Shown: in pieces, positions 1 through 5,625 of the stretch
Layout of the letters: the number at the start of each line of letters is the position of its first letter
Position numbering within the stretch: the stretch's first letter is position 1
Assembly (NCBI GenBank): GCA_007571185.1
Contig: RKRX01000146.1
Span: forward strand, 1-10,218
Direction of reading: 5' to 3'
Length of the DNA: 10,218 bases
Origin: Oceanicaulis sp.
Lineage (GTDB): Bacteria > Pseudomonadota > Alphaproteobacteria > Caulobacterales > Maricaulaceae
The notes under the pieces: generated by a model
Told to the model about the DNA's origin: nothing
The model's input: the letters and a program-made list of their open reading frames with translations, nothing else
The model's database searches: none
Program-made: the position numbers and the translations under genes

Positions 1-98
1 GCAGGAAGCTGCGTCTGCGCCGCAATCAAGCCAGGCGAGCACACAAGCAGCGCGAGCGCCAGAGGCAGGGCTGCGGCGCGACGGTGATCAAAAAACAT
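1..98 (-). CDS. Exported protein, N-terminal part only (signal peptide)
   Basis: The reading frame starts at ATG 98-96 and runs off the left edge of the window after 32 complete codons. The visible peptide begins MFFDHRR, continues with the hydrophobic core AAALPLALALLVC, then SPGLIAAQTQLP. That is a charged n-region, a hydrophobic core and a small-residue c-region ending near IAA/Q, as in a Sec signal peptide; a lipobox is not evident because the cysteine is preceded by LLV. The protein is probably periplasmic or in the outer membrane, but its function cannot be told. The ribosome-binding site is poor: the nearest purine-rich stretch, GGACAGAG, lies about 8 bases or more upstream. The frame stays open upstream through the 7-bp repeat tract, with possible TTG starts at 116 and 152, but the signal peptide favours ATG 98. 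Its likely promoter is about 230 bases upstream, beyond the repeat tract and a terminator. Confidence 0.6.
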   Translation of the reverse strand, partial: MFFDHRRAAALPLALALLVCSPGLIAAQTQLP

Positions 99-138: not shown

Positions 139-172
139 AAAAAACCAAGCAAGCCCGTTACGCTTCGCTTGG
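139..172 (-). terminator. Intrinsic terminator or attenuator in the leader of the exported-protein gene
   Basis: On the minus strand, CCAAGC-G-AAGC (172-162, one bulged G) pairs with GCTTGCTTGG (154-145) around a 7-base loop (161-155). Six T residues (144-139) follow at once. That is a 10-bp stem plus a U tract, the form of a Rho-independent terminator, and it points only leftwards because no T run exists on the other side. It lies between a good minus-strand promoter (334-361) and the exported-protein start at 98, so it would either end a short RNA of about 190 bases or act as an attenuator. The TAA of the small repeat ORF (160-158) is in the loop, so a ribosome reaching it would cover the upstream arm. 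Confidence 0.72.
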
Positions 173-259
173 AGCTTGGAGCTTGGAGCTTGGAGCTTGG
201 AGCTTGGAGCTTGGAGCTTGGAGCTTGGAGCTTGGAGCTTGGAGCTTGGAGCTTGGCAT
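158..259 (-). CDS. Small leader ORF made of heptapeptide repeats
   Basis: On the minus strand, TAGGAG (273-268) is followed after 8 bases by ATG (259-257). The 33-residue ORF reads M, then four perfect copies of PSSKLQA, then PSEA and TAA (160-158). A 7-bp repeat has no stop in any minus frame and every frame gives the same seven-residue cycle, so only the flanks decide where translation stops. I see a good ribosome-binding site, a correctly placed upstream promoter, and a stop codon inside a terminator loop. I infer a regulatory leader peptide. It could also be chance, since a simple repeat gives an open frame for free. No known family is recognised. Confidence 0.42.
   Translation of the reverse strand: MPSSKLQAPSSKLQAPSSKLQAPSSKLQAPSEA
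171..256. repeat. Heptanucleotide tandem repeat, (GGAGCTT) x 12
   Basis: Twelve perfect head-to-tail copies of GGAGCTT fill 171-254, followed by a partial GG (255-256) and preceded by GCTT (167-170). The lack of any mismatch implies recent expansion or active slippage. The unit is not a multiple of three, so a gain or loss of one copy shifts any reading frame across it. The plus strand also reads open, as cycles of GAWSLEL, but I see no sign of a plus-strand gene here. The tract lies in the apparent 5' leader of the minus-strand exported-protein gene. Confidence 0.97.
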
Positions 260-333
260 TGTAATATCTCCTATCGTACGCGGTCAACGTGGAAAACGCG
301 AGGTTACTTGAGCACCTCGCACCTGCTCTTGAT

Positions 334-361
334 TCTATAGCAACACCCTTCGTCCGGTCAA
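334..361 (-). promoter_or_regulatory. Sigma70-like promoter for the repeat-bearing leader
   Basis: On the minus strand, TTGACC (361-356) and TATAGA (339-334) are separated by 16 bases, matching the -35 and -10 consensus at 5 of 6 and 4 of 6 positions. Transcription would start near 327. It would run through the small ORF, the repeat tract and the terminator towards the exported-protein gene at 98, giving a leader of about 230 bases. A weaker second candidate with -35 TTGACC at 287-282 is less convincing because its spacing is poor. Confidence 0.5.
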
Positions 362-3945: not shown

Positions 3946-5265
3946 CTATCGCGCAGAAAGCGCAAGGAGCGCCTCCCGTCTGGTCTCCACACCCGCTAGA
4001 ATGCTCTCGATCAAGCTGGCCGGAACGGTGTTGTCAGCCAGACCGGTTATCGTCTCCAGCGCTTGCGGCATGGCGGCCTCGAGCTCGCTGCAAAGCTGCT
4101 CGACCGCACCTTTGGGCAATCCTGCGGTCCTGGCGCTCTGGTCAAAATGTCGGCGGGCCATCTGCATGATCTGATAGCGGTTGTTGTCACCAACCGACAT
4201 GGCGAGTTTGAACCGATTACGGGACATGCGACCGTCATCGACGATTGGTTGCGCGGATATGACATCGTAAAGCGGGGCCAGAATGAACCGGCCGCCGGGT
4301 CGAAGTTGAATCGAGCAATTCTTGGCGTGCCCGTCAATGGCCCCGATCAACCAGAACACCATTTGGGCGCGGAAGAAAGCGAGCCGGTCAGCCTCCGGCC
4401 GGTCACTTTCTTTGAGACGATCTAAAATGGGCAGAATGCCGGGACCGCCATCACGCTGGTATTTTCGGGCGGAAGGCGCCGCCAGCGCCTGACAGAAATC
4501 CTCCTGCGGCAGGCGCAGCAAGCGACCGTCCCCCGTCCAGAACCTGTCAAACCGGGTCACGCTCAGCACAAGCTGGTCTTCGAAGCTGTCGATTTCGGCC
4601 TCGGCGACTTTAAGCCCCAAAGCCTTGCATAGTTTCAGGCAGACGAACTCGTTCTGGACACCCTCTGTCAGATCAATGTCGTGGTGGATAACGCCAATTG
4701 CCGGTTTGAGAATATGCGTCGTCGCCGTCGTTCCAACAGGTCGCCGCCAAACGCCCTCTGTCTTGAGGAGCGCGGTTTTGTCCTGCGCCCCTGCGATGGA
4801 GATGCGAAAATCCTGGTCATCTGAATCAAGCCCAAGCGGGTTTACGCGCAATCGTCGTATCAGCTCTGCGATATCAGCCTCTGAAACAGGATCACCACGC
4901 ACCTCACCCGCCAAGCCAGGGTCTTCGCCCTCAGCCAGAAACTGGAGCGCGCCGACGCAATCGCGACCGATCACCGCCAGAAGCGAGAAAGCATCCACAC
5001 CTTCCGCTCCCAGCCGCTCGGCGATGTTTCGGCGAACATGCCCGCCATCCGGCAACAGGTTCTCAAACACATTGATCACCCGATATCCGCGCCAGGTCGC
5101 ATCCGACAGAGGCAGCGAAATCGAGACCGGCATGGCATGGTCGAAGGCCAACCAGTCCCGATCATAGGCAAAGCTGATCGCACCGGGATCGGTCTGCTGC
5201 AACAGGCCGACCCGGCGCGCATTCAGAAAGACATTCAGCCGTCGCGTGCGGGATCGACGCGCCAT
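3946..5265 (-). CDS. hipA: HipA serine/threonine-protein kinase toxin
   Basis: This 439-residue protein matches the length of E. coli HipA (about 440), the toxin that phosphorylates glutamyl-tRNA synthetase and drives growth arrest and persistence. Key residues are present: SIAGAQDK (156-163), whose S156 matches the autophosphorylated S150 of E. coli; K187 in THILKPAIG; the catalytic loop GAIDGHAKN with D311 and N316; and the metal-binding D334 in PLYDVISA. The N-terminal HipA_N region (about 1-110) includes the family motif NVFENLLPDG. The kinase therefore looks intact. Its ATG overlaps the hipB stop by one base (TGATG), so the pair should be translationally coupled, with antitoxin first. 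The target in this host is not known; some HipA relatives act on other tRNA synthetases. Confidence 0.95.
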   Translation of the reverse strand: MARRSRTRRLNVFLNARRVGLLQQTDPGAISFAYDRDWLAFDHAMPVSISLPLSDATWRGYRVINVFENLLPDGGHVRRNIAERLGAEGVDAFSLLAVIGRDCVGALQFLAEGEDPGLAGEVRGDPVSEADIAELIRRLRVNPLGLDSDDQDFRISIAGAQDKTALLKTEGVWRRPVGTTATTHILKPAIGVIHHDIDLTEGVQNEFVCLKLCKALGLKVAEAEIDSFEDQLVLSVTRFDRFWTGDGRLLRLPQEDFCQALAAPSARKYQRDGGPGILPILDRLKESDRPEADRLAFFRAQMVFWLIGAIDGHAKNCSIQLRPGGRFILAPLYDVISAQPIVDDGRMSRNRFKLAMSVGDNNRYQIMQMARRHFDQSARTAGLPKGAVEQLCSELEAAMPQALETITGLADNTVPASLIESILAGVETRREALLALSAR

Positions 5266-5510
5266 CAGAATATCTCTGCAAAGTCAGCGCTATCGCTGCG
5301 CTCGGAGACCACAAGCTCCAGACCGAGCGCGAGGAGTGCGTCGAAGAAAACCTCCATGCGGGTGGCGGGCTCACCGGCCTCAAGCTTGGACACTGTCGCC
5401 TGACGCACATTCATGCGTGAGCCGAGTTCGGCCTGTGACCAGCCGTGCGCCCGGCGAGCCTTGCGCACCAGAGCGCCCGCCATTCGGGGACTTCTCATCA
5501 GATCAGCCAT
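5265..5510 (-). CDS. hipB: HipB antitoxin, XRE-family DNA-binding repressor
   Basis: This 81-residue protein has a Cro/C1-type helix-turn-helix (about 23-55, containing WSQAELGSRMNVRQATVSKLEAG, too long for one motif but with the usual Q-x-x-VS recognition helix). Size and layout match E. coli HipB (88 residues), which binds its own promoter and neutralises HipA. I chose ATG 5510 because GGAG lies 8 bases upstream and the helix-turn-helix begins where expected. A longer frame back to 5624 would run through the promoter and operators, so I reject it. The last dozen residues are polar and acidic, like the flexible tail of HipB proteins. The gene overlaps hipA by one base. Confidence 0.9.
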   Translation of the reverse strand: MADLMRSPRMAGALVRKARRAHGWSQAELGSRMNVRQATVSKLEAGEPATRMEVFFDALLALGLELVVSERSDSADFAEIF

Positions 5511-5522
5511 ATCCGTTACTCC

Positions 5523-5592
5523 ATACGCATTCGCGAATAACTTCCATATATACGCTAACACGTATAAATCAAATTGATACGTAAAAGCGTAG
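5523..5592. promoter_or_regulatory. Three evenly spaced hipBA operator-like sites
   Basis: Three copies of a dyad ATACG-N6-CGTAT lie in this region. Site 1 is 5523-5538 (ATACG-N6-CGAAT), site 2 is 5550-5565 (ATACG-N6-CGTAT, perfect) and site 3 is 5577-5592 (ATACG-N6-CGTAG). Their centres are 5530.5, 5557.5 and 5584.5, exactly 27 bp apart. Sites 2 and 3 together also form a larger imperfect dyad (5551-5591, centre 5571). E. coli HipB binds TATCC-N8-GGATA sites in multiple copies, so several operators are normal for this family. The half-site and spacer here differ. Binding by HipB is inferred from position. Confidence 0.68.
5545..5572 (-). promoter_or_regulatory. hipBA promoter
   Basis: On the minus strand, TTGATT (5572-5567) and TATATG (5550-5545) are separated by 16 bases and lie about 35 bases before the hipB start. 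The second of three inverted-repeat sites fills the spacer, so a bound HipB dimer would block RNA polymerase directly. The -10 is weak, but placement relative to the operators supports it. Confidence 0.5.
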
Positions 5593-5625
5593 AAGATGCA
5601 ATGATGACGGCTCTGAAATGACAAC

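Follow-up and report, generated by a model that had tools for sequence, protein, structure and literature searches.

In amino-acid attenuators of the trp/his kind the leader contains consecutive codons for the amino acid under regulation. Leader peptides encoded by tandem repeats are also known. In the pil1 locus of S. gallolyticus, out-of-frame changes in a GCAGA repeat lengthen the leader peptide, and the ribosome then blocks the terminator (PMC3894217). In Pil1-low cells the stop codon lies 39 bp before the terminator, whereas a stop within or beyond the hairpin allows the leader ribosome to block it (PMC3894217). Among the papers listed when the open-access literature was searched for repeats, leader peptides, attenuation and phase variation, this one alone describes such a combination in its title or abstract; a review on S. 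gallolyticus (PMC5891635) also contains these terms. At H. influenzae hmw1A a heptamer tract extends over the -10 box of promoter P2 (PMC8262952). More copies of the hmwA tract give less transcript and less protein (PMC8262952, PMC2651432); it is unknown in that system whether the effect at hmw1A is transcriptional (PMC8262952).

The locus described here lies at one end of the window, which is the whole stretch of 10,218 nucleotides analyzed from an Oceanicaulis sp. contig (C17). There, a probably slippage-prone heptamer tract lies in the 5' leader of a gene whose product seems to be exported, and the leader is one of at least five promoter-plus-heptamer modules in the assembly. From its sequence it may be a repeat-number contingency leader, a reading to which we give a probability of roughly 45%. 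An earlier note on this DNA knew of no attenuator whose leader peptide is a slippery repeat. The pil1 leader is one (PMC3894217), and with pil1 and hmw1A as precedents that guess of novelty fails.

Layout of the leader and dependence of the reading frame on copy number

The features of the leader, in the order in which they would be transcribed, are as follows.

361-356 and 337-332 (332..361), minus strand: promoter-like P1, TTGACC, 18 nt, TAGAAT (promoter scan)
287-282 and 263-258 (258..287), minus strand: promoter-like P2, TTGACC, 18 nt, TACAAT, adjoining the array (promoter scan)
268..273, minus strand: Shine-Dalgarno-like TAGGAG, within the P2 spacer (sequence)
158..259, minus strand: leader ORF M(PSSKLQA)4PSEA*, 33 amino acids, ATG 259-257, TAA 160-158 (sequence)
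167..256, minus strand: heptamer array (CCAAGCT) x12.9, period 7, 100% match (tandem-repeat scan)
145..172, minus strand: terminator-like hairpin CCAAGC-G-AAGC / GCTTGCTTGG, loop 161-155 (folding)
139..144, minus strand: T6 run 3' of the hairpin (sequence)
3..98, minus strand: first codons of the gene whose product seems to be exported, ATG 98, truncated where the contig ends (ORF list)

The earlier note had described a promoter, a ribosome-binding site (RBS), an ATG at 259, an ORF, a terminator and a gene in this order, and a check of the sequence confirmed its coordinates for the promoter, RBS, ATG, ORF, hairpin and T6. The stop codon also lies where it had been placed, TAA 160-158 falling within the hairpin loop GTAACGG (161-155). 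Absent from that description was P2, a promoter-like site that overlaps the RBS and the start codon: TAGGAG-N8-ATG and TTGACC-18-TACAAT share the same DNA. The AAGCTCC repeat is stop-free in every frame on both strands, so that an open frame across the array is automatic and the leader ORF by itself is weak evidence. By simple arithmetic, about 71% of random heptamers are likewise stop-free in all frames.

The hairpin (172-145) folds at -12.9 kcal/mol and is followed by TTTTTT at 144-139; its 5' arm opens with the final six bases of the array. It is unusual for its composition, as 16 of 5000 mononucleotide shuffles of this 28-mer, which was picked post hoc, folded equally well. The output of a consensus terminator scan lacks it, and the 229-nt leader overall folds no better than shuffles (z -0.70).

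Copies of the array were added or removed in silico, from -6 to +6, and the end of the ORF was tracked. The frame depends on the copy number. With n, n±3 and n±6 copies the ORF ends in the loop, at 160-158. With n+1 copies (also n-2) it continues across the hairpin and joins the frame of the exported gene up to the contig end, and with n+2 (also n-1) it stops at 90-88, 8-10 bases beyond the A of the ATG of that gene. All three frames end in or beyond the hairpin and none stops 5' of it, unlike the frame of Pil1-low cells, and no change of copy number moved the stop from before the terminator into or past it. Thus the pil1 mode, in which copy number switches the terminator, is not available here.

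Related elements in the same assembly

The assembly comprises 1.66 Mb in 238 contigs, and it was searched with two heptamers. Arrays of AAGCTCC were found at one end of C28 and C215, and arrays of CTCAGAC at one end of C196 and C138. In these four further contig ends the chassis TTGACN-17-TANAATG lies directly 5' of the array; the spacing in the window is 18. The position of the arrays at contig ends was considered as proof of copy-number polymorphism and set aside, since repeats break short-read assembly regardless.

The pattern TTGACN{16,19}TANAATG has 5 matches in the 1.66-Mb assembly, all of them immediately before a heptamer array, and its reversed control has 1. Four of the five elements were known when this pattern was composed, and its prospective score is 1/1 (C138). 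The family of elements exceeds chance. A form of the pattern that lacks the final G and misses the spacing of the window, TTGACN{16,18}TANAAT, gave 5 matches, 4 of them at arrays. Its reversed control also gave 5, and an over-representation of the promoter string itself was rejected. The fifth match is found in C176 (1782-1810), where a promoter-like TTGAC/TAGAAT stands 5' of ORFs whose weak matches to IS1595 transposases are just below the Pfam cut-offs. At this site a small ORF, MANAPS, contains GCTCCAAGC.

Each of the five elements has a box of the P2 type (TTGACN-17/18-TANAATG) adjoining its array; the RBS position falls in the spacer and the ATG in the -10 hexamer. The ATG is present in 5/5 and GGAG or GGGAG in 4/5: GGGAG stands at the position matching TAGGAG in C28, C138 and C196, and C215 has a G run. 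The G that completes the ATG in every element, together with the GGAG or GGGAG of 4/5, favours a start-codon function of the box. In C28 the GGGAG is 6 bases from the ATG (8 in the window) and the hexamer spacing is still 17; this shift of the RBS distance at constant hexamer spacing favours a promoter function. Both functions of the shared box may be real. The P1 pair with 18-nt spacing is also found in C196, and by eye is not clear in C28, C138 and C215.

C17, C196 and C138 have homologous leaders, with a score reached by none of 300 shuffles, and the shuffle test also links the leader of C28 to those of C196, C138 and C215. Four of the ten leader pairs fail to beat the shuffles (C17-C28, C17-C215, C215-C196 and C215-C138). 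The five-way conservation owes part to common descent. Homologous leaders carry a different heptamer, CTCAGAC in C196 and C138 against AAGCTCC. The array of C28 (first ~153 bases) mixes AAGCTCC with two AAGCCCC units, which shows that arrays can diverge, and perhaps such units seed new heptamers. In 20 other contigs of the assembly (129,506 bases) no heptamer array of at least 3 perfect units was found.

The terminator is visible in one of the five elements, as the other four arrays reach contig ends. The missing 3' ends were sought with TCTGAGGTTTT, which gave no matches, and with GCTTGGTTTTT, which gave three: the window itself and two sites without an adjacent array.

The heptamer in other genomes and the downstream gene

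Stretches of at least 4 perfect AAGCTCC units are present in at least 115 other cases in many phyla, including Verrucomicrobia, Pseudomonas, Paenibacillus, Brachyspira and Omnitrophota, and bacteria often have heptamer arrays outside such a promoter chassis context. Among the matches listed, which are not a random sample, the strict promoter lies within 60 bp upstream of none of 116 arrays from 115 other loci, 108 of the arrays having 60 bp of upstream sequence and 8 lacking it. A general link between AAGCTCC and a promoter was rejected on this count. Among the same matches listed, 6/116 arrays have a Shine-Dalgarno-like motif and a start codon just 5' of the array, and in 7/116 a same-strand hairpin with T5 follows within 60 bp.

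In viral contigs the strict promoter precedes none of 21 AAGCTCC arrays, two of them with less than 60 bp of sequence on that side, and a search for promoter plus array in viral contigs gave no match. Viral contigs contain 69 stretches with GGGAGATNTTACAATG: TTGAC lies just upstream in one, and in none does a heptamer array follow within 60 bases. Four units of CTCAGAC were not found in viral contigs. Six viral contigs harbor AAGCTCC arrays of 33-48 bases with related flanks, TATTGACAA being upstream, and in 4 of these 6 GCGACGTTATGTCACATTGACACAAGATGTAG is downstream of the array. Eight Verrucomicrobiota loci, four of them from one genome, have four AAGCTCC units and then AGAGAA, a form that apparently is a dispersed element of this group.

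The wide occurrence of such arrays, their contexts and the ease with which a heptamer is stop-free all speak for a neutral origin, in which a heptamer grew by slippage in a dispersed promoter-bearing element; the ORF, the frame effects and the position of the stop codon within the loop would then be incidental. In most genomes heptanucleotides outnumber every other class of long repeat, and slippage has been proposed for them (PMC4679880, citing others). We consider this a serious rival that could prove right. Against it stands the fact that each of the five arrays, built from one or the other of two heptamers, sits right at TANAATG.

The search among relatives was negative. The same gene order in related genomes, which the earlier note had proposed to look for, was not recovered, as the leader DNA had matches in 0/98 relatives. 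Three AAGCTCC units were found in 0/118 other members of the family, and promoter plus AAGCTCC in 0/384 other members of the class. In 14 congeners the promoter pattern has 4 matches in 2 genomes (reversed control, 6 in 5/14), and no heptamer array occurs in the 120 bases after these matches. The assembly has 1.66 Mb at 91% estimated completeness versus 2.8-3.4 Mb in the 14 congeners; genome reduction is possible.

The downstream ORF runs for 32 codons from ATG 98 and then meets the contig end, and this gene is the only one known for the five elements. By eye, its N terminus resembles a signal peptide, which suggests a surface protein. A copy of the gene near threonine aldolase in the congeners was not found either: a tblastn of the first 32 residues against 1.5 kb around threonine aldolase in 14 congeners gave a best E of 0.24. 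When residues 41-95 of the 95-residue open frame served as a protein query, 34 candidates came up, none with E <= 0.01, among proteins of about 52-166 residues, a range that excludes much longer full-length homologues. Elsewhere in the window, at 3946-5624 on the minus strand, there is a HipA-like protein (HipA_C, Couple_hipA) with a helix-turn-helix protein ahead of it; the pair looks like an ordinary HipBA-like toxin-antitoxin system.

Proposed function and comparison with known systems

Our best reading is that the leader combines features of hmwA and pil1, with a mechanism that we infer. The number of copies would change by slipped-strand mispairing, and this change would alter the expression of the exported gene. 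Transcription may start at two sites, P1 and, next to the array in the manner of Haemophilus hmw1A, P2. Transcripts from P1 would carry the RBS and the ATG, so that a ribosome could cross the array and cover the hairpin and RNA polymerase would pass; untranslated transcripts would tend to end near 139. The copy number modulo 3 would then set the access to the gene, through a stop in the loop, an in-frame fusion, or an ORF end 8-10 bases downstream of the first base of the exported gene's ATG, which would allow translational coupling.

This contingency leader could be extended to a set of dispersed cassettes, with one promoter/RBS/ATG chassis placed on several genes, the heptamer exchanged while the period of 7 and the openness are kept, and the last unit serving as the 5' arm of the terminator (one element). 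Copy number modulo 3 would make it a switch of three states: one would release the attenuator and leave the gene its own start, one would fuse the repeat peptide to the exported protein, and one would rely on translational coupling. We find this wider form doubtful.

The earlier note had proposed translation-dependent attenuation, whereby translating the leader opens the gene, whatever the copy number. Part of this proposal stood: the stop lies in the loop of the hairpin with T6, the ATG is found in every element and an RBS-like motif in most, and such a mechanism was demonstrated for pil1, which works with the stop in or past the hairpin (PMC3894217). Other parts did not. The ATG overlaps the -10 of a better conserved promoter box, and the box common to all five elements is this inner P2, whose transcript should start inside the array and would thus lack the leader ATG. 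An mRNA that includes the ATG would have to come from P1, and by eye P1 is distinct in 2/5 elements only (C17 and C196); the terminator is seen in just one. PSSKLQA has no obvious regulatory codon run, that is, no run of codons for one regulated amino acid as in the trp/his type, and the repeat has no purpose in this model. In its exact form the model is quite improbable. A small RNA gene that functions apart from the exported gene is very unlikely; P2, the array RNA and the terminator at 139 would give ~110 nt, perhaps a sponge or a protein-binding repeat RNA. P2 is found in all five elements and a terminator-like hairpin directly past the array in the sole element with a visible 3' side, but the presence of two heptamers among the related elements speaks against one common binding sequence, and Rfam 15 at gathering score has no match within the window.

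Compared with the systems described so far, the proposed contingency leader is closest to pil1 and hmwA. Like the pil1/pil3 leader, it has a putative promoter, a candidate RBS, an ATG and a putative leader ORF made of tandem repeats of non-triplet length, and then a candidate intrinsic terminator between leader and gene (hairpin 172-145 plus T6, in 1/5 elements); pil1 and pil3 are two such loci in the strain, with surface-protein genes downstream (PMC3894217). Unlike the pentamer of pil1 in a streptococcus, a heptamer is present here, and a promoter-like box lies over the RBS and the ATG. In position the array resembles that of hmw1A/hmw2A, as it stands at the -10 box of a promoter-like site, 1 nt past TACAAT in the window and close to TANAATG in 5/5 elements. 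The hmw tract lies in the 5' UTR of adhesin genes at two paralogous loci, its repeat is ATCTTTC, and a second putative start there, P1, lies 3' of the array; the terms 'leader peptide' and 'terminator' are absent from the main text of PMC8262952.

Two further groups of heptamers are more distant. The TAACTGA repeats of Beggiatoaceae (2-6 copies in that genome and up to 43 elsewhere) are also intergenic arrays near start codons in scattered lineages, but they form stop codons on the forward strand, are sited just 5' of the gene start codons, and have no promoter chassis in the account given by PMC4679880. The GGGNATC repeats of Xanthomonas and Nostoc are likewise heptamer tandem repeats that are mainly non-coding and mostly transcribed; they form G-quadruplexes, prefer four units, and have no leader ORF in the description of PMC4692102.

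The closest two experimentally studied repeat switches, hmwA and pil1, are from host-living bacteria. If the contingency reading is true, these two separately described arrangements are joined in one leader, and an uncultured alphaproteobacterium-like genome harbors a multi-copy promoter-linked set in which the period of the repeat is kept and its sequence is not. The reading also gives a simple prediction linking copy number and frame. The locus looks like a switch similar in kind to these two known systems, in a new combination.
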